From the IMG/VR virus record IMGVR_UViG_3300032516_000062, positions 1 to 41,639 of that record: 41,639 nucleotides of DNA; one strand, given 5' to 3'. Source of the stretch: a virus. The first letter of the stretch is position 1. Each line of letters begins with the position of its first letter. This document shows positions 2,062 to 39,792 of this stretch, piece after piece. The notes below the pieces were generated by a model. That model was not told the origin of the DNA. It did not search any database and was given only the letters and a program-made list of their open reading frames with translations. The position numbers and the translations under genes were made by a program.

Positions 2062-2547
2062 ATGGGACGATCCAACCGATTGCCTGCCTTAGGCGGCCTG
2101 ACCGTTCTTGAGGACAGGTTCTGCACCTTTGTCGCCCAAGGACTATCCTTCTCCGAGTCAGGACGCAAGGCTGGATACTCCCATGACAACAACGTCGATA
2201 AACTTCTCGCCAACCCAGCTATCCTTCGGCAGATTGTCAATCGAATCAGAGAGTATAAGCGCGACGTGGGAGCTATCGAACTCCTCTCCAAGAGCAAGCA
2301 AAAACTCCACGCCTTGATGGACTCGGCAGACGAGAAGGTTGTCCTAGGAGCTGCCGCTTCGGTTCTTCGCACCTTCTCCGGGCCAGGACGTAAGACCCTC
2401 TTCGAGAAGGCAGTCGAGGAAGACCTCAAAACTACCGACCTGGCTGCCTTAGCCCGTAGTCTTCTCCCAAAAGACGCCATCATGGACGCTGAGATTATCG
2501 AGCCGAAGCAGTTGGTAGCCAGCGAAGGGGAAAAACCCAGTGACTGA
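2062..2547 (+). CDS. terS: Terminase small subunit
   Basis: A 161-residue protein that would recognise phage DNA and hand it to the large terminase. The N-terminal 45 residues contain a helix-turn-helix-like segment (FCTFVAQGLSFSESGRKAGYS) typical of TerS. Central helices (about 60-115) would form the oligomerisation core, and the acidic C-terminal tail would contact TerL. It overlaps terL by 8 bp. No strong ribosome binding site is seen. Position and domain order make the assignment firm although overall similarity was not computed. Confidence 0.85.
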   Translation: MGRSNRLPALGGLTVLEDRFCTFVAQGLSFSESGRKAGYSHDNNVDKLLANPAILRQIVNRIREYKRDVGAIELLSKSKQKLHALMDSADEKVVLGAAASVLRTFSGPGRKTLFEKAVEEDLKTTDLAALARSLLPKDAIMDAEIIEPKQLVASEGEKPSD

Positions 2548-4234
2548 AAGACCAAGGGTTACCGGGAAGATCAAGGTGGATGCCGAAAGGCTGATGATCT
2601 CATGGCTTCGGGACCTCTCTACCTGTACCGAAGAGGAAATACGATCTCGCTGGAAGGATCCCCAGAAGAGTGTCATCGACCGCCTGGAGAAACTTGCCAA
2701 TCCCCAAGGTGGTTTCGAGGCCAGGGTCAAGGGCCATAACCCCATCTACTTCCTCGCCGAACGGGTTTGGTTCGATAATGACCCCGCCTTGCTCTATGCC
2801 CCTCTTCACAAGGACATCCTCTGCAAGAACGTACTTGACTATGCTCTTAACCCTGGGGAGTTCCGGTCTCTGCTAATCCTCATCCAGCGATACTCCTACA
2901 AGTCCACCTTCATGCACGGTGTCGTCCCCATGTGGCTTCTCTTCCGTGGGAAGCACCTGCACAACAGGGATGAACGCATCGCCCTGGTTCACCACAAGGA
3001 AGAGATGGCCAGCCGTAACCTCGTCCGAATCAAGCTGAAATTCACCCAACACGAGTGGTTGAAGAAGAACTGGGCGGAGTTCTGCAAGGACGAGGACTTC
3101 GGGACCATGAAGAACTTCAACGCGCCTTGCAGGGTGCTGTCCTCGTATTCTTCGGAACCTTCGGTCAGTTCTGCTGGCCTGGGCTCCAGGCTTACTGGGT
3201 CTCACTTCTCATGGATGTTCTTCGACGATATCGTCACCGAGGAGCATATCGACTCCAAGACCATCCGGGATGACGCCTTTGCCTCCTACTCAGCTTCAAG
3301 ATTTATGCTGGATATGCCGGGAGGACGCGAAATCTGCAGTGGCACCCGTTACCATCCCAATGACCTCTGGGGGAAACTCCTCAAAGCCAACGTCGAAGGT
3401 CAACCGATCTACAAGTCGGTGGTTATTTCTTCCATCAGCGATTCCGATGACCTTTCATTTCCAACACGGCATACCAGGAAGTTTCTGGAAGACCTCCGGC
3501 AGGAGTACATCAGCCGGAACGGGAATGACGACTTGTGGTATCTTCAGATGCAGAATGAGCCCAAGGTGACCCGGCTTATTGCTGCCGACTGGTCATGGAT
3601 GAAGCATTGCACCAGGGAGGACGTTCCGTGGCAATCGTGGCGAGTCATCCTCGTGGACCCTGCCTGGAAAGGGACGGAAAACTCCGGAGAAGGCGACTGC
3701 GCCAGTATCCAGGTCTGGGCCTGCCACCGCGTCGGAAGTCTCATCAATTACTATCTGTTGGACGGTGTCCACAGCAACGAGTTGACCGAAAAGGCTGGCA
3801 TTGACCATATTTTCCGACTCATGCGACAGTATGGCATCAGCGACGTGGCGCCCGAGGAGCATGGCGGAAAGGGATTCAGTTCCCGGCTCCAGAATGAGGG
3901 AACTTCCAGGGGATGGTTCACCAACATCATTACCCTGAAGAATATCCGTAAGGAAAAATATGGGTTATCACGTATCGTCGGATGGCTGGGGACTCTGCAG
4001 TCAGGGCGGATCTGGCTCTGTAAGGAATGTGACCCAGATCTAAAGGAAGTTCTTGAGGAACAGGTTAGAGAGTATCCCCAGGTGGATCATGACGATGCCC
4101 TCGACTGTGCCGCCTACACCCAGGACCCTGGCATCACTGAAAGTTACGTTCCCAGGTTCAATGAGGACATGCACTCTCCTCCGTGGCAGAAGGAACCGGA
4201 ACCCATGAGGCGTACCCGCTACTGTCAACTATGA
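2540..4234 (+). CDS. terL: Terminase large subunit
   Basis: A 564-residue packaging motor ATPase and headful nuclease. A Walker-A-like RYSYKST is at about 117-123 and a Walker B WMFFDD at about 225-230. The nuclease domain shows VDPAWKG (Asp 373), the PEEHGG acidic pair (about 439-440) and HDDALD (about 517-522), which together make a complete RNase-H-type metal site. The start is GTG within the end of terS, with AAGGGG upstream. Length is normal for the family. The next genes are small and unknown, followed by head genes, as expected for this module. Confidence 0.95.
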   Translation: MTERPRVTGKIKVDAERLMISWLRDLSTCTEEEIRSRWKDPQKSVIDRLEKLANPQGGFEARVKGHNPIYFLAERVWFDNDPALLYAPLHKDILCKNVLDYALNPGEFRSLLILIQRYSYKSTFMHGVVPMWLLFRGKHLHNRDERIALVHHKEEMASRNLVRIKLKFTQHEWLKKNWAEFCKDEDFGTMKNFNAPCRVLSSYSSEPSVSSAGLGSRLTGSHFSWMFFDDIVTEEHIDSKTIRDDAFASYSASRFMLDMPGGREICSGTRYHPNDLWGKLLKANVEGQPIYKSVVISSISDSDDLSFPTRHTRKFLEDLRQEYISRNGNDDLWYLQMQNEPKVTRLIAADWSWMKHCTREDVPWQSWRVILVDPAWKGTENSGEGDCASIQVWACHRVGSLINYYLLDGVHSNELTEKAGIDHIFRLMRQYGISDVAPEEHGGKGFSSRLQNEGTSRGWFTNIITLKNIRKEKYGLSRIVGWLGTLQSGRIWLCKECDPDLKEVLEEQVREYPQVDHDDALDCAAYTQDPGITESYVPRFNEDMHSPPWQKEPEPMRRTRYCQL

Positions 4235-4865: not shown

Positions 4866-5771
4866 GTGAAGACAAAAGGGAAGAAGCATATTCTCCTTGC
4901 CATCCCCTGTGAAAGCAATGAAGTCCACGTCCCAGTGGCCAGCTTCGCAGTGGAAGCCATGCGGCAGAATGGAATCAAGGACTGCCCTTATGAGTTCTCC
5001 ATAGCCTTCCAGGTAGGCCGAAAACCCACGGAGTTTGCCAGGAACTGTCTTATCACCCAGGCTTACAACCGCAAGGACTGTGATGCTATCTGGTTTGTAG
5101 ACAGCGACATGGTTCCCTCAAAGAACAGTTTCGAACTACTGAACTGTAAGGATGATATCGTGGCGGGAATCGCCCCCATCCTTTCCAATCCACTCAGTAC
5201 GGAACCGTCCTTCACCTTCAATCTTTACAAGAGAGTCCAGAGCAACAACAATCTGGATTTCATCCCCATTGGACTCAATGGAGGCGTTCCCTTCAAGGTG
5301 GATGGTGCAGGGACGGCTTGTATGGTCATAGACCGCAAAGTCTTCTCCGACAAGAGACTCTGGCTTGGGAAGCCATCAGGCAAGGAGAAGATCATTCCCT
5401 TATTCAGATGGCCTCGGTCTATCACAGGAGAGACCCTGGGGACCGACGATCTGGACTTCTGCCGACGTGCCAGGGATCTTGGATACACTATTACCGTCAA
5501 TCCGAATATTATCTGGGGCCATCTCAAGGAAATGGACCTGATGTGGCCCATGGAAAAACTACGCACAGTGTTGATGCGCCCGCCTTCCAGCCTGATCACC
5601 ATGAACGAATGGAACGATCACGCTATCAGGGCCGGTCAGAACCCACACTATGTCTATCAAAACTGCAGCCCGTCTGGCGAGGCCACGGGGAATAGTTCCC
5701 AGGATGGCGTTAATCGCACCCACCGGAAACAGGTGACGGGAGTTTCCAAGGAAGGACAAGCCCATGCCTAG
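4866..5771 (+). CDS. GT-A fold glycosyltransferase-like protein, copy 1
   Basis: A 301-residue protein resembling family-2-like glycosyltransferases. The N-terminal KHILLAIPC strand is followed by IWFVDSDM, a DxD metal and nucleotide-sugar motif (Asp 79 and 81). Later come DDLDFCRRARDLGYTI and a WGHLKEMD segment, shared with the protein at 11323. The start is GTG at 4866 with AAAGGAG upstream. It overlaps the next gene by 8 bp. It may glycosylate virion proteins or host surface sugars; its place inside the head module favours a virion role, by inference. Donor and acceptor unknown. Confidence 0.75.
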   Translation: MKTKGKKHILLAIPCESNEVHVPVASFAVEAMRQNGIKDCPYEFSIAFQVGRKPTEFARNCLITQAYNRKDCDAIWFVDSDMVPSKNSFELLNCKDDIVAGIAPILSNPLSTEPSFTFNLYKRVQSNNNLDFIPIGLNGGVPFKVDGAGTACMVIDRKVFSDKRLWLGKPSGKEKIIPLFRWPRSITGETLGTDDLDFCRRARDLGYTITVNPNIIWGHLKEMDLMWPMEKLRTVLMRPPSSLITMNEWNDHAIRAGQNPHYVYQNCSPSGEATGNSSQDGVNRTHRKQVTGVSKEGQAHA

Positions 5772-6183
5772 AATTGTGAGACCTTATCCCCTCGATGCTC
5801 AGGCCAAGACTTCTGTGGCCACCATCGGAACAAATGCCGGTACCAATGTTTTGACCATGGGACTGGCGATGACCCCCCTGAGTCTGCACGGAAAGATTGA
5901 GAAGTGGTGGATTATCAATGGAACCCTCGGAACCGGAACAGGAACCATGACATGCTTCCTTACCGTCAGTGGAGGAACGTCGTCTACCAGACAGATCAGC
6001 TCAACCATTGTTGTAGACCCCGCAGGGGTTGCCGGAACCTATCAGGAAGGAGCTGGGTGGTCTTCTGGGATGTACGAGGTGGCTTATGGAGACCTACCCT
6101 TGGCCCTGTCCCTCTATAGCACCCAGGGAACTACCAATGGCAATGCTCCTGGACTTCTTGTCGGATGCGTCTGGAGGCTCTGA
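5764..6183 (+). CDS. Probable structural protein, beta-rich
   Basis: A 139-residue protein rich in Gly, Thr, Ser and Val with alternating patterns (GTGTGTMTCFLTVSGGTSS) typical of beta-sandwich virion or decoration proteins. It has no catalytic motif. It overlaps the glycosyltransferase-like gene by 8 bp and ends in a TGATG overlap with the next gene. It may decorate the head or serve as glycosylation acceptor; both are guesses. Confidence 0.6.
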   Translation: MPRIVRPYPLDAQAKTSVATIGTNAGTNVLTMGLAMTPLSLHGKIEKWWIINGTLGTGTGTMTCFLTVSGGTSSTRQISSTIVVDPAGVAGTYQEGAGWSSGMYEVAYGDLPLALSLYSTQGTTNGNAPGLLVGCVWRL

Positions 6184-6584
6184 TGGCACAGAATCCAGTC
6201 AAGTTCGGAACCTTTACTGCCACCACCAATGGAACGGTGGCCCTCACGACAGCTGCGTCAGGGTTTGGAGCCTTTCCGCCCAACAACCAGATCGCCGGTC
6301 ATGGGGCCAACGTCTGGTGTGAAATCACTTCCGTCGGTTCAGGTTCGGCTTGGGCCACCGGAAGCGGTTTCAAGTGGACTTCTCCCGGCGGAAATGCCCT
6401 GTCCATCGGTACCATCGGGGCTGTGACATCCACCACGAACTCGCAGATGCTGACTCTTGCCGCTGCCTTTGTGGATGCCACAAAACTGACCCATCCACCG
6501 ATTACTCACGTTCAGGTAACCGTACAGACCGCAGGGACAACGACTTCCTTAATCGGCGACCTGTACATCATTCCGGCGATCTGA
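6183..6584 (+). CDS. Probable structural protein, beta-rich
   Basis: A 133-residue protein, similar in composition to its upstream neighbour (many Thr, Ala, Gly, Val). The ATG at 6183 overlaps the upstream stop as TGATG and has GGAGG before it; an ATG 18 bases upstream is less likely. It ends in another TGATG overlap. A tandem pair of beta-rich proteins before the portal suggests head decoration or fibre-head proteins. Not assigned. Confidence 0.6.
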   Translation: MAQNPVKFGTFTATTNGTVALTTAASGFGAFPPNNQIAGHGANVWCEITSVGSGSAWATGSGFKWTSPGGNALSIGTIGAVTSTTNSQMLTLAAAFVDATKLTHPPITHVQVTVQTAGTTTSLIGDLYIIPAI

Positions 6585-7144
6585 TGGGACATTTCCAGAC
6601 CGACTGGACCGAAGGCTATAAGGAATCCTTCGAGAAGGCGGTTGGACTCTGCGAAAATCACGGATCGGCCCTTGAAATCGGATGTTTCGAGGGCCGGTCC
6701 ACTATCTTCTTCGCGGAGAAGTTTGATCATGTGGACGTAATCGACACCTTTAAGGGCTCCCCGGAAATCATCAACTCCGGTTACAACTGCGAAGAACTCT
6801 ATGAGACGTTCCATAAGAATACCCTAAAGCTGTCCAACAAGATTACCCCTCATGTTGGAATGAGCCATAACGTCATGTGCGGGATGGTAAGTCAGGGCAG
6901 AATGTTCGATTTCGTCTATGTGGATGGCAGTCATACCGCCATTGACTGCGCCACTGACACCCTTCTGTCCATCGGAATGCTCAACAAGGGTGGTGTCATC
7001 CTCATCGACGACTACCTGAACTGGATGGAATTGACTCCAGGGTCAAGAACCCATGATGCCGTTGACTTCATTATTCATGCTCTCCATGGGTCCAACATCG
7101 TCCTTCAGTACGTTGGGACACAAGTTGCTTTCAAGAAGGCATAA
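6584..7144 (+). CDS. Class I SAM-dependent methyltransferase
   Basis: A 186-residue protein starting in the TGATG overlap at 6582-6586. Motif I is ALEIGCFEGRS (about 29-39). An acidic residue at the end of strand 2 (VDVIDTF) would hold the ribose, and FDFVYVDGSH and GGVILIDDY match later strands of the Methyltransf_24 type. These enzymes often methylate sugars or small molecules. Placed among structural genes and near two glycosyltransferase-like genes, it may modify the transferred sugar; that link is inferred. Confidence 0.8.
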   Translation: MGHFQTDWTEGYKESFEKAVGLCENHGSALEIGCFEGRSTIFFAEKFDHVDVIDTFKGSPEIINSGYNCEELYETFHKNTLKLSNKITPHVGMSHNVMCGMVSQGRMFDFVYVDGSHTAIDCATDTLLSIGMLNKGGVILIDDYLNWMELTPGSRTHDAVDFIIHALHGSNIVLQYVGTQVAFKKA

Positions 7145-11141: not shown

Positions 11142-11312
11142 ATGTACCTCAAGGGCGAGGTTGGAGTCTTCACGACCTGCTCCAAGTACGCAGACCGCTA
11201 CGACCACATGCTCATCGTGATGGTGGATGGTGATGGGAAACCCCAAGGACTCGATTACTGCATCCCAGATTCATGGCCTGAATGCTGCCAAGGGTGTTCC
11301 AAGGAAGATTAA
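11142..11312 (+). CDS. Small Cys-rich protein, 56 residues
   Basis: An ATG at 11142 opens a frame running to TAA at 11310-11312. Codon choice throughout (ctc, atc, aag, tac, gac) is like neighbouring genes. The protein has an N-terminal GEVGVFTTCSKYADRYDHM and a C-terminal CIPDSWPECCQGCS with four Cys, so it may bind metal. Its weak point is a poor ribosome binding site. It ends 11 bases before the GTG start of the next gene. No family recognised. Confidence 0.55.
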   Translation: MYLKGEVGVFTTCSKYADRYDHMLIVMVDGDGKPQGLDYCIPDSWPECCQGCSKED

Positions 11313-11322
11313 CGGAAACGTC

Positions 11323-12141
11323 GTGAACAACTCCGGCAGGAAGCACGTCATGATGGCGATTCCCTGCATGAAGGCTTCCATCACGACTCCCATAGCTACC
11401 CTGATGTGCGATTCCGTCCTTGAGGGGTTGAAACCTGGGGGTGAGTGGGTCTACTCGTTCAGGATCGTCTCCGACTACTTCCCAACCGAATACGCCAGAA
11501 ACGTCCTTTGCCGACACTTCCTGGAATCCGATGCCCAGTACATGTGGTTCATCGACTCTGACACCATGCCCGATGCAAATTCCTTCAAGTTATTTGATGT
11601 CGATGCTGATATAGTGGCAGGAGTCTATCCTATCGGAAGACAGGAACGCGGGAACCGGGTTCTGGCTGTCGATTGGGGGATGTACCAGAAGTCGGAGGAA
11701 CACGAGAATGGATGGCTCGCCCTGCCCTTGGAGGCCTACCAGAAGGGCGAAGTCATTGACGTGGACGCCGTGGCCACAGGTTGTATGGTCATCAAGCGTC
11801 ACGTCATTGAACACTTTGCCAAGACAGCAGAAAAAGACGAAGACGGGACTCCGGCCATCTTCTTCTGGCCGAAAGTCTGTACAGGGAAGTCCATCTGCTC
11901 GGACGACTTTGACTTCTGCAAAAGGGCGAAAGCGGCAGGGTTCCAGATCAAGGTCCACACCTCGGTGAGATGGGGCCATCTGAAGTTCAAGGACCTCCGG
12001 GATGTCTACGAACAGTTGAAGTCGGCTTGGATGGCCGGATACGAAGAGTCTGCTGAAGAAGGGGGCTACACAGCCCTCAAAGAAGGGATGGGACTGGAAG
12101 ATGGCTCTCAAGTCATCCTACCTCCTCACGGCCCCCAGTGA
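11323..12141 (+). CDS. GT-A fold glycosyltransferase-like protein, copy 2
   Basis: A 272-residue paralogue of the protein at 4866. From the GTG at 11323 the two align from the first residue: KHVMMAIPC here and KHILLAIPC there both begin at residue 7. An ATG at 11227 is also in frame but would overlap the small gene before it. The DxD motif is WFIDSDT (Asp 78 and 80), and DDFDFCKRAKAAGF and RWGHLKF follow as in copy 1. The sugar and acceptor are unknown. It overlaps the next gene by 41 bp. Confidence 0.75.
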   Translation: MNNSGRKHVMMAIPCMKASITTPIATLMCDSVLEGLKPGGEWVYSFRIVSDYFPTEYARNVLCRHFLESDAQYMWFIDSDTMPDANSFKLFDVDADIVAGVYPIGRQERGNRVLAVDWGMYQKSEEHENGWLALPLEAYQKGEVIDVDAVATGCMVIKRHVIEHFAKTAEKDEDGTPAIFFWPKVCTGKSICSDDFDFCKRAKAAGFQIKVHTSVRWGHLKFKDLRDVYEQLKSAWMAGYEESAEEGGYTALKEGMGLEDGSQVILPPHGPQ

Positions 12142-28556: not shown

Positions 28557-29042
28557 CTACTGAATCTTCGGGCTCACGAAGCATGACTCGCAAGACCCGC
28601 ACGCTCCTCCGCATCCGCAAATTCCGATTTTTCCTGGGCCTTGCTTGCACCAGATCGTGTTCGTGCAGGAGCAGACCATCGTTCCCTCCGGGACGATTGT
28701 TCCCGGCTTCACGTGGCGCAGCGAGACCGCCTTGTCCGCGAGATCAGGTCTCCCGGCGCGGAGAGCAATGTGCGCGACGGCGTTGTAGGTCGAGATTGCG
28801 AATTCGTCACGCTTTCCAGGGTCCACCTTGTAGAGTCCGTGGTCTCCAACTGTCTCAATTCCGAGCAGGGTGTCACCGTCATAAAGGGCGACGCAGTAGC
28901 CAGAGCCGTCCGCGCTGAGTCCCTTCATCGGGAGCGGCGCGTCACGGTCCGCGATTGGGTACTTCCACGCGAGACTGAAACTCACGAGCATCACCACGGC
29001 AAACAGAACCGCTACCGCCTTCGCCATTTCTCGGGTGCTCAT
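28557..29042 (-). CDS. Membrane-anchored or exported Cys-rich protein
   Basis: A 161-residue protein. AAGGAG lies six bases before the ATG at 29042, which fixes the start. An N-terminal hydrophobic helix (about 7-26, KAVAVLFAVVMLVSFSLAW) acts as signal or anchor. The outer part has a beta-like region and a Cys-rich C-terminus (CSCTNT then CGCGGACGSCESC, eight or more Cys), which could bind metal or form disulfides. No family recognised. The end of the gene lies just after the hairpin cluster. Confidence 0.6.
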   Translation of the reverse strand: MSTREMAKAVAVLFAVVMLVSFSLAWKYPIADRDAPLPMKGLSADGSGYCVALYDGDTLLGIETVGDHGLYKVDPGKRDEFAISTYNAVAHIALRAGRPDLADKAVSLRHVKPGTIVPEGTMVCSCTNTIWCKQGPGKIGICGCGGACGSCESCFVSPKIQ

Positions 29043-29234: not shown

Positions 29235-29307
29235 TAGCACTGGGGGGAGTTGAACCCCTCTTCTCCGCCTTGAAAGGGCGGCATCCTGACCGTTAGACGA
29301 CAGTGCC
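29235..29307 (-). tRNA. tRNA-Glu (anticodon TTC)
   Basis: The minus strand folds into a full cloverleaf of 73 nt. The acceptor GGCACTG pairs with CAGTGCT, giving seven pairs with a G-U at the first. The D arm has TCTAACGG, the anticodon stem CCGCC/GGCGG holds loop CTTTCAA with anticodon TTC, and the T arm is GGGG TTCAACT CCCC. CCA is not encoded. It is the only tRNA recognised. It may help translation of Glu GAA/GAG codons or mark a past integration or recombination point. Confidence 0.9.
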
Positions 29308-30999: not shown

Positions 31000-31701
31000 C
31001 TACCACCCCAGAGGAAGAGGATTCTGGCGCAATCGTCTGATGGCCGTCTCACAGTGTTTCATCTCGATCTCAATCCCAATGGATCTTCTCTGCACCCTTT
31101 TAGAAGCTGCAAGAGTGCTTCCACTTCCGGAAAAGGGGTCGAAGACAATGGATCCAGGCGCAGTGCTTTTTGAGACAAGAAACCCCAGAAGGCTTTCTGG
31201 TTTTTCACAGGAATGCTGTAATTGTGCCGGTGATACCCGTCCGAAAGAGAGAAGATTTGGACTTCGACCCTCACGTAAGATGTGTCTGCTTTTCGTGGCA
31301 TAAGCAATCATCTCCACTTGGGGTGCGTAGTCACCCTCCAGATCACCCATCCCCCAGTTCCCTTTGTCCCAGAAAAGCGACGTTCCGATATCATAGCCAG
31401 CAAGCTGCAGCACGTTCCGCAAGAGATACATCTTATCCTCACGCATGAACCAGTAAGATGCGCTTCCCATTGGCAGCTTTTGAAACGTCCTATGGGCCAG
31501 CCACCCAAGGAGTGTTTCCGGGAACTCTTGGTCTCCTTGTATGGCTTCCGCGATCCCGTTCTGGGCTTGTCTGTGGTTCGAGACATAGTTGATCCCGTAA
31601 GGAGGGTCAGTAATTACGCAGTCGAAGGAATCGGTCCATTCGTAGTCTCGAACGTCACCGTGGTATAGCTTACTGAACTCGTCCTCGTAGATGATCCTCA
31701 G
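31000..31701 (-). CDS. DNA methyltransferase (N4/N6 type) with CTG start
   Basis: A 233-residue enzyme if read from CTG at 31701. It contains motif IV, TDPPYGINY (about 31-39), and near residue 187 the SAM motif FDPFSGSGST followed by SIGIEIEMKHCETA. This order is that of beta-class DNA methyltransferases. No ATG, GTG or TTG exists between the preceding TAA and Met 78, and the shorter form would lack DPPY. GGGAGGT lies five bases before CTG, supporting a CTG start. It probably methylates adenine or cytosine in phage DNA; the target is unknown. Confidence 0.72.
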   Translation of the reverse strand: MRIIYEDEFSKLYHGDVRDYEWTDSFDCVITDPPYGINYVSNHRQAQNGIAEAIQGDQEFPETLLGWLAHRTFQKLPMGSASYWFMREDKMYLLRNVLQLAGYDIGTSLFWDKGNWGMGDLEGDYAPQVEMIAYATKSRHILREGRSPNLLSFGRVSPAQLQHSCEKPESLLGFLVSKSTAPGSIVFDPFSGSGSTLAASKRVQRRSIGIEIEMKHCETAIRRLRQNPLPLGW

Positions 31702-32402: not shown

Positions 32403-33407
32403 TTAGAGTTCGTTTTGTTGATTCTCGGGTACGTTATGCTGATTCTCTGGGTGGTACAGTTTGCACTTGTTCTTGATCTCCTCTGGACAGTAGTCCCTAC
32501 ACCTCCATCCTTCGTTCTTTTCGCCAATGCTTCCTGGGTCGTAGGCAAGGTTCGTAAGTTCAGAACTTTCTGGCGCAGTCCGCAGATCGATCCTTCCATT
32601 CTGAATTCTCCAAAGCAACTTGGCCTGGGGATAGATCCCGCCGATCGTCTTCTCAAGGAGGGCTGGTTTGAACACTGGGCAGTCAGGGATCTGATAGATA
32701 AGAGTCCACTTATAGCCATTCTGGTTCCATTGTTTCAGGGCCGGATGGTTTTCGGAGATGTCCTTGGGTTGAGACTTCTGGTACTTGGTGACGGTGAACA
32801 GTCCCCCGGTTTCCACAGTCTCCATCATACTCATGTAGACGATGACAATTCTGGAGGTCTTTACCTCTGGATTCAGCCATGAGTAGAAGTTTTCCTGAAG
32901 AACATGATCCTGCTTGGGACCGTCCTTGAGATACTCAAGCCCTTTGTCGCCAATGGTCTTCCAGGAATACCTCGTGTTGGCAGAGTTGATGTGTAGGTCG
33001 ATCCTTCCTCCAATGGGCACATCCCCGAGCATTCTGGGTCCCCATCGCTCTTCGATCCTGAAGTCGCTTGGGTCAAGTCCTCGTTCCAGGATTCCATTCT
33101 GATAGTCTTCCATGAGTCTGTGGAAGATTTTTCCCCTGATGGAGTAGTACAGGTTCTTTGGGGTGTCAAAGTAGTCCACCAGCCTGGATAGTCCATGCTG
33201 AGTATGGCACCCCACCAACCTTGTAATTGTCACGGCCTCCGTTGGATCGAAAGAGGGTTTGTACCCTGCATTGGAAGACCAGATGGCATGGAGAAGCGGT
33301 TCCGCAAGGCACTGCCGATCGCACTGATTGAAGCAGGCGTCGGCATTCCTGTTATTCGTGCCTTCAGTCTTGCTCCCCTTAGGGCATCTGAATCCGACGA
33401 GTCCCAT
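32403..33407 (-). CDS. Cas4/RecB-like PD-(D/E)XK exonuclease
   Basis: A 334-residue nuclease. N-terminal Cys residues (8, 25, 29, 33) and a late CRDYC...C resemble the iron-sulfur cluster of Cas4-type nucleases. The active site pattern is RGKIFHRLMEDY (His 96), then GGRIDLHI (Asp 137) and SWKTI (Lys 150). It starts in a TAATG overlap with the Bet gene, suggesting a joint exonuclease/annealing pair. Specific substrate and direction are not shown. Confidence 0.75.
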   Translation of the reverse strand: MGLVGFRCPKGSKTEGTNNRNADACFNQCDRQCLAEPLLHAIWSSNAGYKPSFDPTEAVTITRLVGCHTQHGLSRLVDYFDTPKNLYYSIRGKIFHRLMEDYQNGILERGLDPSDFRIEERWGPRMLGDVPIGGRIDLHINSANTRYSWKTIGDKGLEYLKDGPKQDHVLQENFYSWLNPEVKTSRIVIVYMSMMETVETGGLFTVTKYQKSQPKDISENHPALKQWNQNGYKWTLIYQIPDCPVFKPALLEKTIGGIYPQAKLLWRIQNGRIDLRTAPESSELTNLAYDPGSIGEKNEGWRCRDYCPEEIKNKCKLYHPENQHNVPENQQNEL

Positions 33408-34318
33408 TATTGTCTCTCTTTCATATAGTCGATGAGGGTTCTGGCTTCTGCTTTGGTCAATTTTGTCAAGGAATCTTTCCTGAATGTCATCTTGATGTAG
33501 TCATCCATGAGACTCTCGGTAAGTTCCTTGGTATCAGCCTTGAACGTGCTTTTCTTGAGAACATGGACGAACCTGATCTGCCCTCCGGTTATAGTTTCCT
33601 GTGTCCGTGGACTCTCTTCAGGCCGTCCTTCAACCACTTCAACGTCAGGTATATAATCCGCATCCGTTGGAGGAGGCGGTTCTGTTATCGGAAGAGGAGA
33701 TGGATCTGGTGCCATAAGACCAGCAGACTCCACCGGAGCGACATAGCCCGAAGGCAGGTCTCCGATTTCAATGCCTGCTTGATCCATCTCCTCTTTTACA
33801 TACAAGTTACTGAGCTCTGCCGGGAATGCCTTACGGAGGGACAGAGCTTCCGCGCACTTGGCGATCATCACATGGGGCATCTTCCTCCACATGAACCCCA
33901 GCCGATCGCCAGGATAGTATTGAGACCACCTCGCAGTGGCAGTGAAGGCGCACCTGAATCCACCGACCAGCTTCCAGACTGTCACCGTGGCAGTCAGGGG
34001 ATGTTCCTCAGAGGTGTCTGTTTGGGCGTAAGTGAAAATGGCGTCATCGCTTCCCGCATAGAATCCAGTGCGGTCTGCGACCAGCCTGGAGCCATCTATG
34101 CCCACTTGGAACGTCATCCGTTCCTGACCCTCTGACCGACGCTTCACGACGTAAATCTGTCTCATCAGAGGGTCCAGACGGGTACTTCGGCAGACATGAA
34201 GAAACAGCTGCAGTTCCGTGTCCGTCAGATCAGGGGCAATCGTTTTCTTGATGAGGTCGATATGCTCCCTGGTGAATTCAAGTCCTTGGTCTGGTCTCTT
34301 GGCGATAGAATCAGTCAT
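33407..34318 (-). CDS. bet: Bet/RecT-type single-strand annealing protein
   Basis: A 303-residue annealing recombinase. The conserved core includes FLHVCRSTRLDPLMRQIYVV, TFQVGIDGSRLVADRTG and MPHVMIAKCAEALSLRKAFP, the signature of the Bet family. It would anneal single-stranded phage DNA made by the neighbouring nuclease. The C-terminal 100 residues are acidic/Pro-rich with a conserved end (RFVHVLKKSTFKADTKEL). AGGAG precedes the ATG. Confidence 0.9.
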   Translation of the reverse strand: MTDSIAKRPDQGLEFTREHIDLIKKTIAPDLTDTELQLFLHVCRSTRLDPLMRQIYVVKRRSEGQERMTFQVGIDGSRLVADRTGFYAGSDDAIFTYAQTDTSEEHPLTATVTVWKLVGGFRCAFTATARWSQYYPGDRLGFMWRKMPHVMIAKCAEALSLRKAFPAELSNLYVKEEMDQAGIEIGDLPSGYVAPVESAGLMAPDPSPLPITEPPPPTDADYIPDVEVVEGRPEESPRTQETITGGQIRFVHVLKKSTFKADTKELTESLMDDYIKMTFRKDSLTKLTKAEARTLIDYMKERQ

Positions 34319-34689: not shown

Positions 34690-34711
34690 GCCTCCCTTAG
34701 CTAAGAGAGGC
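34690..34711. terminator. Hairpin between leftward genes
   Basis: GCCTC-CTTAG and CTAAG-GAGGC form a ten-pair stem with one mismatch and a tight centre. A second dyad, GGGACT/AGTCCC, lies near 34610-34635. This 145-bp gap separates the gene at 34720 from the recombination genes. It may hold a terminator plus a new promoter. A T-run is lacking on the leftward side. Confidence 0.4.
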
Positions 34712-34719
34712 TTCTTGGG

Positions 34720-35016
34720 TTACCCCAGATCCGCCTTGGCGTACACCTTCCGCAGCTTTCCGGAGAGGTTGGTAAAGCCCTTGAATGCCGCGTGGCGATA
34801 CTTCTTTTTGTTCCCAGTCTCGCCACGAACCACGACATCCTTCAGTCCGACGAACGTAACCACGAAGTTACTCTTCGTCTTGTTTCCCTGCAGGATGTCC
34901 CCGACACGGATGCAATCACTGGTCATCTTCTCACCTCCTTTCGGTTTGAGTTGGACTTTGTAGAGAAGGCGCATCCTTCTCCACATCTCTTCTGTAATCC
35001 TCCTACAACGGTTCAT
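34720..35016 (-). CDS. Basic protein with two possible starts
   Basis: From ATG 35016, in an ATGA overlap with the upstream gene, the protein has 98 residues; from ATG 34926, preceded by a perfect AAAGGAGG at good spacing, it has 68. The common part (SDCIRVGDILQGNKTKSNF and GETGNKKKYRHAAFKGF) looks like a small beta-barrel with a basic tail. The N-terminal addition is basic and Met-rich. Both starts may be used. Function unknown. Confidence 0.6.
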   Translation of the reverse strand: MNRCRRITEEMWRRMRLLYKVQLKPKGGEKMTSDCIRVGDILQGNKTKSNFVVTFVGLKDVVVRGETGNKKKYRHAAFKGFTNLSGKLRKVYAKADLG

Positions 35017-35924
35017 TTGAACTCCTTCATCCATGAGATGATCTTGGCAACCTTAACGTCACTCTTCCTGACTTCCTTGCTCAGCGCGACCGTGTAGGGC
35101 AGGTTCTTGGCCATGTAGGGGCTGACTCCAACTATCTTCGTCAGAGGATGGGTTGGCAGCCTCACGTCCGTCCCCACCATGATGTCCTTACCCTCCATGA
35201 AATCCTCCGTCCCGCCAATGATACAGATTTGGACAGGGAGCATCCCAACCTTCTCAATGATGTCAAGGACGCGGAAATCCCTGTTGCGACGGCACATCGG
35301 ACGGTACAGTATCTCCTTTGGTAGCTTGTTTTTTTTCCTGAAGATGACTTGCTTGGTGATTTCCTGGATGGCCTTGATCTTACCGTCATCAACCTTAATA
35401 GAACTCCAGGATTCCCTTTCTTCAAAACAACGGTGGCAGTACTCGCGGAAAGTATATTCATGCCTTGTACAGTACTGGAGTCGTTCGTCGATCCTGCAGC
35501 AGGGGCAGATGCCTGATTGGTATTCTCTCGGAAAGTTACGGCCACAATTTGGGCAGCTTTTGTAGCAGTAAGGGCAGATGTAGGACGGATAGCTCGAATA
35601 GGATATGTTAAAAAGATGGGTTATCGAGAATGTGGATATCGTCCTATGAATAGGGCAGGTCAAGTAGGGAACATAGACACGTTCAGTACTACCTTCTGTT
35701 TCGACAAAGGACTTCTTTATGAGCACTTGTCCGATGAACAGGATGTCAACCTGTTGTCTTGTTAACGCAGCTCCTTCCATCCCTACTGTAGCCATGAAAG
35801 CCCCGTTGCTCAGTGAGTCATGGGCTCTCTGCAAGAATATTTCAACCGATTTTCTTGCGGCTATCTCTGTCTTGAACCATCTATTGATAGGCACTGGTCT
35901 GATACTCCTTAATCGGCATCCCAT
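35013..35924 (-). CDS. Multi-zinc-motif protein of the amidoligase cassette
   Basis: A 303-residue protein. Its centre (about 88-165) is packed with Cys/His pairs (CPIH, CPYC, CPNC, CPCC, CTRHEY, YCHRCFE), enough for several zinc ions. The C-terminal part has an alpha/beta region (GMLPVQICIIGGTEDFMEG) and a conserved end (GVSPYMAKNLPYTV). It follows the amidoligase and amidotransferase genes and may be a carrier or substrate recogniser. I cannot assign a known family. Confidence 0.6.
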   Translation of the reverse strand: MGCRLRSIRPVPINRWFKTEIAARKSVEIFLQRAHDSLSNGAFMATVGMEGAALTRQQVDILFIGQVLIKKSFVETEGSTERVYVPYLTCPIHRTISTFSITHLFNISYSSYPSYICPYCYKSCPNCGRNFPREYQSGICPCCRIDERLQYCTRHEYTFREYCHRCFEERESWSSIKVDDGKIKAIQEITKQVIFRKKNKLPKEILYRPMCRRNRDFRVLDIIEKVGMLPVQICIIGGTEDFMEGKDIMVGTDVRLPTHPLTKIVGVSPYMAKNLPYTVALSKEVRKSDVKVAKIISWMKEFK

Positions 35925-36211
35925 CCCTGGGTCCTGCGATCACCTCTTGCGCAGGGTCCACAGATGTCTTTTTCTGAGACAAGGAGAACAATCCGACATC
36001 GAGTGCATCTCCTCATGGATTTGTAACAAGAGATGCAGAGGGTCGGATCTTGCTGATTGACCCCTATTTCATCGAACTCGAAGTTGCATTTTCTACAAAC
36101 ACTAACGCTATATTCTCCGCCTTGCAGATTCTCCTGAACTCTCTCCTCTTGTATTTCTCCACCTTCTTCCAGACATTGTGAGGAATATAGATGTTTTTCG
36201 TTGCCTCGCAA
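35909..36211 (-). CDS. Small zinc-ribbon-like protein, start uncertain
   Basis: A protein of up to 100 residues. Its last 60 residues hold CRKCNFEF, CISCYKS, CTRCRI and CGPCARG, two CxxC pairs of zinc ribbons. The listed start is a TTG at 36211, which overlaps the amidotransferase gene by about 148 bp. No ATG or GTG exists before the ribbon, so a shorter form could also arise by coupling. It overlaps the next gene by 16 bp. Confidence 0.5.
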   Translation of the reverse strand: MRGNEKHLYSSQCLEEGGEIQEERVQENLQGGEYSVSVCRKCNFEFDEIGVNQQDPTLCISCYKSMRRCTRCRIVLLVSEKDICGPCARGDRRTQGWDAD

Positions 36212-37209
36212 TGATTTAGGGTTTGATTCACTGAGGAAACCGAAGAATCCCGGCCTTTCTCTTCCCCGTCCTTCTCGACTGGAGACAGGGGGTGGCCTTT
36301 TTTTTTACACTTCTTGCACTCGTAAGCCTGGGCTTGGAAGTTCCACTCAGGCTGGGTGAGTTTTTTGCAGTTTTCACAGTGGGTCTGGTAAGACGAACTT
36401 CTGGTGGACCAGGATTGTCCACCTTCCCAGTCGTGTCCATTCCACTTTGTATTCGATGAGTAGGACATGATCTTGTGGACGATCTTGGAGGTTTCCTCGA
36501 CTCCTTCCTTCCCAATGATGATGGCGATGTCCTCTTTAATCTCGAAGCAAGCGGAAGGAGTGCAAGAGAAGCCTCTATGGTTTACTCTTGTAGACTGCAC
36601 AATCGCACCAACTGTGCTGGCAAAAAAGAGGATATCATTCGAGTCATCCATCGAGAAGACGATGGGGTTGGAGTGTCTATAGAGAATGAGATGGTCAGGC
36701 CATGACGTTGAGATTGCTGCCAGAGCCATTGAGCCTTCCAGTTTTCCCAGTTCCTTCGCTGCGTCTAAGACGGCAGTCTGGTCCATGATCGCCAGGATGG
36801 CTTCCGAATCCACTTCACCTTCCCTGGACCACTTCAGTTCCTTGATGATCTCATCATCGTTCCTGATGATCCCATTGTGGACCAGGACGCATCCGTTGAT
36901 CTTTGACCAGACTGGATGGTTGTTCTTGGAGTTGGCTTGACTCCCCTTGGTCTTGGATCTGGTATGGAATATGACCGTATGGGGGCTGTTGTCACCGAAG
37001 AGATGTTGCTTGTGACTACTCCAGATCTCGCTTTCGAGAAACTTATCGGCTGGGATGGCATCCTTGCCGATGTAGATTTTGTTGTCCTTGATGTATCCCA
37101 GACCTGTGGCGTCCTGGCCACGGTTGGAGATCTCAAGGAGAATTGTTCTGACCATGTCTTCTGTTGGTCTTGCAGTGCCGAAGCACTTGTACCCGGCTAT
37201 CCCGCACAC
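36064..37209 (-). CDS. Class-II glutamine amidotransferase (GATase II)
   Basis: A 381-residue protein. GTG at 37209 has AAAGGAG seven bases before it and places Cys at position 2, which becomes the N-terminal nucleophile after Met removal (CGIAGY). Class-II motifs follow: NRGQDATGLG (29-38), FHTRSKTKGS (81-90), NNHPVW (96-101), LVHNGI (109-114). Residues 278-301 form a CxxC...CxxC zinc ribbon. It would release ammonia from glutamine. No synthase domain is fused, so the acceptor must be another protein, probably the adjacent amidoligase. Confidence 0.85.
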   Translation of the reverse strand: MCGIAGYKCFGTARPTEDMVRTILLEISNRGQDATGLGYIKDNKIYIGKDAIPADKFLESEIWSSHKQHLFGDNSPHTVIFHTRSKTKGSQANSKNNHPVWSKINGCVLVHNGIIRNDDEIIKELKWSREGEVDSEAILAIMDQTAVLDAAKELGKLEGSMALAAISTSWPDHLILYRHSNPIVFSMDDSNDILFFASTVGAIVQSTRVNHRGFSCTPSACFEIKEDIAIIIGKEGVEETSKIVHKIMSYSSNTKWNGHDWEGGQSWSTRSSSYQTHCENCKKLTQPEWNFQAQAYECKKCKKKGHPLSPVEKDGEEKGRDSSVSSVNQTLNHCEATKNIYIPHNVWKKVEKYKRREFRRICKAENIALVFVENATSSSMK

Positions 37210-37228
37210 TTTGGAGGCTCCTTTGGCA

Positions 37229-38026
37229 TCAGACTTTCCACTCTTCCCTGAAGTTAGTATTCCAGTCGATGGATTCCCTCTCTTGGATGAGAAGGTTGGT
37301 AAACTCAAACCCATTCTTGCAGCAGTCAGGGATGTCAACGAGATCCCCAATGTTGGAGATATGGCTGACTCTCTGATCATCCGTCATTTCCTTGGGGTTA
37401 GGGAGTAGTTTGTAGCAGTTGATCCCATGCTTTTTGAACATGAGCAGGGCAAGACAGAACAGGGTGATGTTGGCATAGGCTACCGGGGGGCTGATGAGCC
37501 ACGAGCCAGGGGTCCTGTACTCGAATCCACCGTGTCCTTTCCCTTCTATAGCACGATATACTCTTTCTCCTATGATCTCCTTCCCATTGTGAGTTTTGGC
37601 TCCATAGGAGGTCAGGGTACTTCTCTTTATGTAGCTTTCCTTGTCGTCGATGAGTTCTGACAGACACTCCATGAGAAAGAACTCGAGAGCAAAGTAAAGC
37701 GCGTACTGTGTTGCTCCAGTACTCATGTCAAACTTCCCGACCTGGAGATGTCCTCCAAGAGGAAGTCCATCGAAGAAGTGTCCTGCATGAAACGTTAGGT
37801 TTTTATCGAGTTCATCCTTCTTCTTGTAGAAGCACTCGTAAAGTTTAGCGACCAGCTCATCCGGGTTGCAGGCGATTCCTGGTCTGACTTCTCCTGTAGT
37901 GGGGACATCAGTGCCAAGGTAGCCTCCTGCATATCGGAAGATGCTCGAGGCATCGACATGATGCCCGCTTCTCCTGATAGCGAATTCAGGATCTGCTCCG
38001 ATGGTAAAGGGGAGATTCTCAGGCAT
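37229..38026 (-). CDS. phiEco32-like COOH-NH2 ligase (amidoligase)
   Basis: A 265-residue enzyme of the glutamine synthetase/GCS-like group of ATP-dependent COOH-NH2 ligases seen in phiEco32-type phages. Key segments are IGADPEF (9-15), LPLGGHLQVGKFD (88-100) and GGFEYRTPGSW (166-176), which carry the acidic and His residues for metal and ATP. It would join a carboxyl to an amine in a peptide or metabolite. It overlaps the previous gene by eight bases and precedes the amidotransferase. Substrates are unknown. Confidence 0.82.
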   Translation of the reverse strand: MPENLPFTIGADPEFAIRRSGHHVDASSIFRYAGGYLGTDVPTTGEVRPGIACNPDELVAKLYECFYKKKDELDKNLTFHAGHFFDGLPLGGHLQVGKFDMSTGATQYALYFALEFFLMECLSELIDDKESYIKRSTLTSYGAKTHNGKEIIGERVYRAIEGKGHGGFEYRTPGSWLISPPVAYANITLFCLALLMFKKHGINCYKLLPNPKEMTDDQRVSHISNIGDLVDIPDCCKNGFEFTNLLIQERESIDWNTNFREEWKV

Positions 38027-38534
38027 GACGCTTGGCCCTCGATAGAGACTTTCTGGTCATCAAAACAACTTTGTCCACAGTCTTCTGTTGGGCAGACTTC
38101 GCTGAAACATCCTCGTATTTGATGGGATTATTGAGGATTCTCCATGAGTCCACTCCGGCAGGAAAGCATGATGACAGCATGATTGGGAAATAGAAAAAAT
38201 TAAAGAGTTTATCTGCAGGACGATTCCTCAGAAAAGGGAGGATCGCTTGCCAGGTCTTGTTTCTGTCAGGAAAATTACATTCCGAAAATTCATTAGAATT
38301 GAAACTCGTCCATCCTATTCCGAGTCCCTGAGATAGGGCACTGATTTTGAAGCTGTAACCGTTCCTTTTTCCCTGAAAGATTTGTAGCATGGGAGCCGGG
38401 AAATATTTCTTGAATTCCAACACCTCGTCAGGGAAGATCCGCTCGTGGTCAGCGATAAAGACTTTGCATTCAATCCCTCTGTCAAACCATATTTCAGGCT
38501 CGAGGGGGAATATCTTATTCTTGAGTCTCTTCAT
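38019..38534 (-). CDS. Unknown protein upstream of the amidoligase
   Basis: A 171-residue protein starting at ATG 38534 in a TGATG overlap with the previous gene, GGAGAG upstream. It is rich in aromatic residues (KYFPAPMLQIFQGKRNGYSF, LFNFFYFPIMLSSCFPAGV) and looks alpha/beta. It does not show ATP-grasp motifs. Its tight coupling suggests a role in the amidoligase pathway, perhaps substrate binding. Family not recognised. Confidence 0.65.
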   Translation of the reverse strand: MKRLKNKIFPLEPEIWFDRGIECKVFIADHERIFPDEVLEFKKYFPAPMLQIFQGKRNGYSFKISALSQGLGIGWTSFNSNEFSECNFPDRNKTWQAILPFLRNRPADKLFNFFYFPIMLSSCFPAGVDSWRILNNPIKYEDVSAKSAQQKTVDKVVLMTRKSLSRAKRHA

Positions 38535-38920
38535 CACATCTCTCCATAGGGATAGATGTTTTCATCATCAGAGGCGGACTCTTTGCTGTAAGACTTCATC
38601 TTGTCTGATGCTATACCCTGGTCAGGGAAGTTTTTGGAATAGCATTCCCAGCAGACGTTATGATCAGCTGGTCCTAGGGTCCTCTGGAAAATAATAAGAG
38701 TCCTGAATTTCTTAGGGATGAGCTCTACGGCATCCTTAATGTAGTTGCCCTTGATCTCGTCTAGGTTTGTGGTGAGCCAGACGATACATGGCAGTTTGCG
38801 AATCTTTTTGTAGATGCCACAGATGAAGCAGGTATTCCATACCGCTGTGTGTTCGTTACCCCACCCAATCTCGACACAGTAGTTGGGTCCTATGATTTCT
38901 GCAGTTCTCTTGTAGGACAA
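38534..38920 (-). CDS. Zinc-motif protein, TTG start
   Basis: A 128-residue protein. TTG at 38920 has AAGGAG six bases before it, so it is preferred to a TTG 21 bases upstream, which would place that site inside the gene. The sequence has CFICGIYKK and CWECYSKN, a CxxC...CxxC pair, and an LPCIVWLTTNL strand. It may be the first gene of the cassette. No family recognised. Confidence 0.6.
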   Translation of the reverse strand: MSYKRTAEIIGPNYCVEIGWGNEHTAVWNTCFICGIYKKIRKLPCIVWLTTNLDEIKGNYIKDAVELIPKKFRTLIIFQRTLGPADHNVCWECYSKNFPDQGIASDKMKSYSKESASDDENIYPYGEM

Positions 38921-39134: not shown

Positions 39135-39269
39135 CAGTTTGCCGCCGACCGTTCATCCCATGTACCAGATTCGGGAGATGGGAGACAGCCCGCAAAAGTA
39201 ACCGAATCACTCCACCTGCTTCATAGGCTCGCCACCTCCCGGTGAATGAAAGGTAGATTAAACTGCTTG

Positions 39270-39301
39270 CTGGACTCTACTTCACCGCTTACAGAGTCCA
39301 G
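39270..39301. terminator. 8-bp hairpin at the end of a small frame
   Basis: CTGGACTC and GAGTCCAG are perfect complements around 16 bases. The stop of the 33-residue frame lies inside the loop. The T-run needed for an intrinsic terminator is absent; function open. Confidence 0.4.
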
Positions 39302-39383
39302 TCAAGTCTTCCATGTTAAGGACACACCGAGAGGACTTATACTCCAAGTCCCTACGGTCTACCCTCACAGGAGTAAACTCCAT
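39282..39383 (-). CDS. Possible 33-residue peptide
   Basis: ATG at 39383 is preceded by AAGGTGAGG. The frame (EFTPVRVDRRDLEYKSS then CVLNMEDLTGLCKR) has normal-looking residues, two Cys and good codons, and a protein-like stretch extends upstream without a start. It may be a small true gene or the end of a truncated one. Confidence 0.35.
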   Translation of the reverse strand: MEFTPVRVDRRDLEYKSSRCVLNMEDLTGLCKR

Positions 39384-39501
39384 GCCCTCACCTTCATTGG
39401 CATGGCTTGTCCCCCAGATCTTCGGCCGGAGTCTTCTGGTGGCCTCAAATCGTAATTCATCAGAGGCGTCTTAAAATGACCAGGATCGGTGGGGGGATTG
39501 A

Positions 39502-39524
39502 GATGAGGCTTAATACTCCTCATC
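39502..39524. terminator. 7-bp hairpin
   Basis: GATGAGG and CCTCATC pair around nine bases. It lies downstream of the leftward gene ending at 39637. No T-run follows on that strand. Confidence 0.35.
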
Positions 39525-39636
39525 CCCAATGAGTCTGGCCATCTCCTCGGTGACGTTTACACGGGAGACTTAGGGGATCTTATGTCAGGCACGTCACTGC
39601 CTTGACCCGCCCAGGGTAACGACCCGGCCAGATTCC

Positions 39637-39792
39637 CTAGTGGCACCTCGACACTTCTCCGAACTGGCAGCGGAAACCGCCCATCTTGACCCTACAGTGC
39701 ATCAGGAGGCGTCCACAGGCGCATCTGGGGAGCTTAGTACTGATGAATCTTGTTCTCTTACGTGGAGGCCTTGTGGGGTTCTTTCTGGGCAT
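39637..39792 (-). CDS. Small zinc-ribbon-like basic protein, 51 residues
   Basis: GAGGGGA lies six bases before ATG 39792. The product has a basic N-terminus (RKNPTRPPRKRTRF) and CACGRLLMHCRVK then CQFGEVSRCH, a Cys/His set for one zinc ion. It overlaps the previous gene by 35 bp in another frame. Possibly a nucleic-acid-binding peptide. Confidence 0.55.
   Translation of the reverse strand: MPRKNPTRPPRKRTRFISTKLPRCACGRLLMHCRVKMGGFRCQFGEVSRCH

Follow-up and report, generated by a model that had tools for sequence, protein, structure and literature searches.

A candidate minimal amidoligase–glutamine amidotransferase module with Cys-rich neighbours in a viral sequence record

The stretch of DNA analysed, below called the window, was the viral record IMGVR_UViG_3300032516_000062 (41,639 nt). 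No exact terminal repeat was found in the 41.6-kb window, and the record might be incomplete. At 35013-38920 it includes a run of six open reading frames (ORFs) on the minus strand, in the 5' to 3' order F, E, LIG, GAT, B and A. A ligase of the family PF14395 (LIG) and a class II glutamine amidotransferase (GATase; GAT) lie head to tail within the run, with Cys-rich ORFs on either side. F and E overlap by a few bases and E and LIG by 8 nt, while gaps of 14-19 nt separate LIG from GAT (19 nt) and B from A. The last ORF of the run, A, shares a 22-nt overlap with the next gene.

The match of LIG to the PF14395 profile reached 65.3 bits (curated cut-off 25; E = 6.6e-18) and covered profile positions 1-180 of 254. 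The conserved residues of LIG are D12-P13-E14, E46-x-R48-P49, G92-H93, Y141-G142, E169-x-R171 and W176, of which E14, E46, H93, E169 and R171 were invariant across 12 aligned ligases including LIG. An AlphaFold model built from a 12-row alignment had a predicted local distance difference test score (pLDDT) of 83 and a predicted template modelling score (pTM) of 0.87. Foldseek comparison of the model with the PDB gave matches to YbdK-type ligases, PafA/Dop and glutamine synthetases (E from 5e-7, TMq 0.41-0.57), the YbdK-type ligases being the closest solved folds. The model thus suggests that LIG has the glutamine-synthetase/gamma-glutamylcysteine-ligase fold, and because the active-site residues are also present, the set would include an ATP-dependent synthase. 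Among bacteria one ligase homologue was detected, in Paenibacillus, and no GATase was found in its 14.5-kb locus.

GAT matched the PF13522 profile with 50.6 bits (cut-off 27; E = 2.5e-13). It starts with GTG at 37209, preceded by AAGGAG and followed by TGC; the protein then begins M-CGIAGYK, and Cys might become its N-terminus by processing. The glutamine-site residues of class II enzymes, C2, R84, N112-G113 and D134, were invariant in 12 phage GATases, and the C-terminal zinc ribbon is formed by C278xxC281...C298xxC301. Six leftward ORFs had been listed in the original prediction for this DNA; one was read as a COOH-NH2 ligase, another as a GATase of class II, which was said to have Cys at its N-terminus and to carry a zinc ribbon. 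All six ORFs and the named features were recovered at their positions, B being doubtful as a separate gene, and both enzyme assignments were upheld by the profile cut-offs and by the retained active-site and catalytic residues. The prediction had further stated that no fused synthase was visible; this needs correction, as the predicted ATP-dependent synthase is the PF14395 protein itself, which had not been counted as one.

Table 1. Features of the six-ORF run in the window, in the direction of reading.
Feature	Position	Strand	Description	Basis
F	38534-38920	-	128 aa, two CxxC (C31, C90), first in run	no family match
E	38019-38534	-	171 aa, unknown family	
LIG	37229-38026	-	265 aa, COOH-NH2 ligase, E-V-R-P subtype	PF14395 profile, conserved residues, predicted glutamine-synthetase/gamma-glutamylcysteine-ligase fold
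GAT	36064-37209	-	class II GATase, C-terminal zinc ribbon	PF13522 profile, residues
A9 run	36298-36306	-	just past second CxxC of GAT	longest homopolymer in the window
B	35909-36211	-	double zinc ribbon (four CxxC), candidate ORF, start uncertain	
A	35013-35894	-	293 aa, 13 Cys, four CxxC; zinc-array-like centre at about residues 79-157	

When viral records were searched by the GATase alone, nine out of ten matched PF14395 or Amidoligase_2 (PF12224), and the exception was the weakest match. Searching by the ligase motif IGADPEF yielded 34 loci with both a ligase and a GATase, but since these loci were selected on the ligase they give no measure of the pairing. Other enzymes were frequent in the 33 records compared, the window included: Amidoligase_2 was present in 18, GGACT (PF06094) in 17, Peptidase_C26 in 17, and at least one of the latter two in 24. 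None of these three families had a match in the possibly incomplete record of the window, and the same was true of the records L020, L036 and L067. Neither was there any match to ATP-grasp_3 (PF02655) in the window, other ATP-grasp families not having been searched over the whole record.

Phages such as phiEco32, Salmonella 7-11, LUZ24, PA11, tf, RIO-1 and PSA-HP1 carry a cassette in which, as here, the early region pairs a PF14395 ligase with a GATase of class II (PMC5498523, PMC11945000). This set has been presented as a seven-gene 'peptidoglycan modification cassette' and hypothesised to prevent superinfection (PMC5498523; also PMC11945000, PMC10580990); PMC5498523 and PMC10580990 trace it to Iyer et al. 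(2009) and Hardies et al. (2013). The set has also been annotated in LUZ24-like phages (PMC3890496), and in phage HP1 expression of the cassette genes begins right after infection (PMC7082346). In the literature examined, no experiment was found that directly tests the substrate of the module or the predicted change in host peptidoglycan. Class II GATases occur together with amidoligases also in pSal-SNUABM-01 (Salmonella), JB8 (Pseudomonas), Citrobacter CVT22, Vibrio 172P1, Pseudoalteromonas Slicky01, Leptolyngbya Lbo-JY46 and Arthrobacter phages, and GGACT and ATP-grasp genes often accompany them in these phages. A C-terminal zinc ribbon on the GATase, as in GAT, is present in the 7-11-like phage pSal-SNUABM-01 and in JB8.

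The window differs from the phage cassette in having no match to Amidoligase_2, GGACT, Peptidase_C26 or ATP-grasp_3, in the E-[LIV]-R-P type of its ligase, and in its separate Cys-rich ORFs. The seven-gene cassette is incomplete here, and the set was therefore classed as a reduced variant: it is a reduced, zinc-rich form of an already known phage module. The proposal that it is an undescribed system accordingly fell, as sets of ligase and GATase have been published from phages (PMC5498523, PMC3890496, PMC11945000). Arthrobacter phages (Ottawa and Shrooms; cluster AL phages in PMC5513430) resemble the window in that an amidoligase of the glutamine-synthetase fold adjoins a class II GATase. The Arthrobacter phage GATase was 35% identical to GAT over 209 aa; the pair differs from that of the window in that the ligase belongs to Amidoligase_2 instead of PF14395 and a GGACT gene is present. 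MurT-GatD of Staphylococcus aureus (PMC3267633), two proteins that together amidate a carboxylate in a glutamine-dependent way, offers an analogy only. The window is unlike it in combining a class II GATase with a ligase of predicted glutamine-synthetase fold. MurT-GatD consists of a class I GATase and a protein of the Mur-ligase fold.

The CxxC motifs in these proteins would bind zinc, judging from their sequences. At least two CxxC were present in 18 of the 38 module GATases and in 14 of the 124 other ORFs of at least 200 aa (p = 6e-6). Cys-rich neighbours were not enriched over all related loci (18/182 near vs 9/121 far, p = 0.54). When the 32 related viral loci were divided by ligase subtype into 14 with the E-[LIV]-R-P ligase of the window and 18 others, a neighbour with at least three CxxC was present in ten of the 14 and in none of the 18 (p = 1.6e-5), a split that was seen post hoc, with greedy ORFs as a proxy for genes and with related loci that are not independent. 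These ten neighbours were either separate proteins or zinc arrays fused to an amidoligase. The zinc ribbons on the GATase itself were distributed in the opposite way, being present in 14 of the 18 loci of other subtypes and in three of the 14 E-[LIV]-R-P loci. Among five further loci with an E-[LIV]-R-P ligase and a GATase, fetched later, the split was weaker, being clear in two and loose in one. The part of the original prediction that placed zinc proteins in the set was thus partly supported, by the CxxC-rich GATases and by the ten same-subtype loci, and not by any overall enrichment. The placement of zinc ribbons according to ligase subtype looks like the new part of the finding.

The Cys-rich neighbour in L021, L038 and L091 belongs to Amidoligase_2 and carries a zinc array at its N-terminus; in L022, too, Amidoligase_2 is fused to a zinc array. 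For the L021 protein (5321-6988), 23 overlapping CxxC were counted. Small Cys-rich proteins adjoin the ligase in L020 and L089, as in the window.

The closest relative found was L028 (IMGVR_UViG_3300028827_000129), a viral contig of 170 kb whose ligase is 36% identical to LIG over 194 residues. In it one GATase lies on one side of the ligase, and a protein with eight CxxC followed by a second GATase lies on the other. Both GATases start with MCGI-GY-CFG--RP like GAT and end with tandem zinc ribbons. L028 differs from the window in its two GATases, its second ligase, and its Peptidase_C26, GGACT and ATP-grasp genes. Within one stretch of the contig (3445-11116), a Peptidase_C26 and an ATP-grasp gene lie together with both GATases and with two PF14395 ligases that differ in subtype.

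B is doubtful as an independent gene and may instead belong to the GATase as its zinc tail. On the 5' side of the first CxxC of B there is a single standard start codon, TTG at 36211; it is inside GAT and has no Shine-Dalgarno sequence. The overlap of B and GAT is 147 nt, and codon usage did not tell which of the frames is read there. The ribbon spacing of B resembles that of the L028 GATase tails, and against the second GATase of L028 (GAT2) B scored higher than all 200 of 200 shuffles with fixed Cys positions (z = 3). Because of this likeness, and because a -1 shift at the A9 run opens exactly the frame of B, a fusion of GAT and B is possible.

The interpretation preferred here, with a probability of about 60%, is that the run encodes a minimal split amidoligase-GATase module, that is, a two-subunit glutamine-dependent amide synthase with accessory zinc-ribbon parts. 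GAT would split glutamine and pass the ammonia to LIG, which would activate a carboxylate with ATP and turn it into a carboxamide, while the zinc ribbons of GAT, B, A and perhaps F would join the two enzymes or bind the substrate. The substrate is putative as well, cell-wall peptide carboxylates being the guess published for the phage cassettes. Several points weigh against the amide synthase. Position 95 is Gln in LIG and His in most relatives of the 12-ligase alignment, the pairing of ligase and GATase fits separate steps of one pathway too, and the subtype split has the limits given with it. Furthermore, no sequence relative of A was detected, pattern scans of viral contigs included, and since A has no relatives and F and E have no family match, these ORFs may be passengers. 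It is even conceivable, although somewhat unlikely, that LIG and GAT form the complete functional unit and that F, B, A and E are unrelated small early genes nearby. The early region of the window is indeed rich in Cys-rich ORFs, others with two CxxC each lying at 28557, 30024, 30409 and 39758, and the result over all loci as well as the isolation of A and F agree with such a neighbourhood; the Cys-rich neighbours of the same-subtype loci, the zinc ribbons that many relatives carry as a fused part of the GATase or of Amidoligase_2, and the likeness of B to the fused tail of L028 GAT2 argue against it. A bolder reading makes the Cys-rich proteins indispensable zinc-ribbon adaptors or carriers by which the substrate is brought to a separate ligase-GATase pair; within one subtype of the phage amidoligase module this role would shift between GATase tail, amidoligase head and stand-alone proteins, and in this phage the -1 shift at A9 would add the GATase tail. 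This reading is very unlikely.

The main chemical rival of the amide synthase is a LIG that forms gamma-glutamyl (isopeptide) bonds to an amine like gamma-glutamylcysteine ligase or YbdK, GAT then being mainly a glutaminase or serving a separate step. It would agree with the YbdK-type ligases as nearest solved folds, with the frequency of the gamma-glutamyl-cleaving enzymes GGACT and Peptidase_C26 in the same viral genomes, and with the term gamma-glutamyl amidoligase used for one cassette ligase (PMC5498523), but the window has neither of the two cleaving enzymes, and for a gamma-glutamyl ligase acting on an amine no GATase is needed. This chemistry is unlikely here. Protein tagging in the style of the Pup ligase PafA, with a zinc protein, or else a protein of the host, as the target that LIG conjugates or amidates, is less probable than any of these. 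PafA has the same fold and is, with Dop, among the best structural matches, and the ligase is adjoined by small Cys-rich proteins here and in L020 and L089; the match to PafA was nevertheless no better than those to YbdK or glutamine synthetase, and none of the small proteins has a Pup-like Glu/Gln end, the final residues of A, B, E and F being K, D, A and M. A further alternative concerns B within the module: it would be part of a longer GATase reached by a -1 shift at A9, whether programmed, by slippage, or apparent because of a base-count error in the assembly. The run of nine A, the exact lead into the frame of B, the poor start of B and the tandem ribbons fused to the L028 GATases all point in this direction, whereas the RNA 3' of A9 folded no better than shuffles (z +0.7) and had no unusual structure, and the frame of GAT stays open and plausible for about 80 codons beyond A9. 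The longer GATase, too, is unlikely.

Amidoligase-GATase modules are common in phages, and in the literature examined the substrate has been demonstrated for none of them. As the form in the window is without Amidoligase_2 or gamma-glutamyl hydrolases and among the easiest to express and assay, the question of the amidation target would be directly testable with it. The zinc ribbons linked to ligase subtype, either fused or adjoining, suggest which of the neighbours belong in such an assay.

For the four remaining ORFs of the run, F, E, B and A, searches of Pfam, PHROGs, NCBIfam and PADLOC gave no significant match to any family. F starts with TTG preceded by AAGGAG, and its place in the functional set is uncertain. 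An alternative ATG start of A lies at 35924, and a model of A built from the single sequence was uninformative (pLDDT 31). Kinship of A with the zinc protein of L028 was rejected: there was no significant similarity between the two, and the C-terminal likeness seen by eye was attributed to chance. Also the idea that E is a displaced C-terminal domain of the GATase was abandoned, since its pairwise match to the C-terminal region of an L039 GATase (shuffle z = 12, phmmer 13 bits) found no support in profiles of three GATase tail groups. A defence system was likewise rejected, PADLOC having given no real match.

Upstream of the cassette, 476 nt without long ORFs (39165-39640, minus strand) were predicted to fold more stably than 100 of 100 dinucleotide shuffles (z -2.7) and are possibly a structured RNA; neither an Rfam match nor similar phage DNA was found for this stretch. 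Just downstream of the cassette, a RecT-type annealing protein and a weakly exonuclease-like protein (32403-34318) probably form a recombination pair. A DNA methylase ORF at 31000-31470 matched the N6_N4_Mtase profile at positions 160-220 of 221 only, and because the match is limited to the end of the profile, the ORF may be truncated or split. Relatives of the large terminase (TerL; 2540-4234) were only distant, at about 24% identity and in phages that include Vibrio D505; the phage lineage therefore appears poorly sampled. Single-protein pattern scans of viral contigs gave no relatives of A, TerL or the single enzymes. Two proteins of about 300 aa (4866-5771 and 11227-12141), the former without a Pfam match, have the motifs 'LLAIPC...' and 'MMAIPC...' near their starts and look like paralogues by eye. 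A tRNA-Glu with the anticodon TTC lies at 29235-29307 on the minus strand. Finally, a 15-nt near-perfect palindromic hairpin (GCCTCCCTTAGCTAA / TTAGCTAAGAGAGGC) is located at 34690-34711, just past the gene ending at 34720, and the stretch around it folded better than most shuffles (z -2.25).

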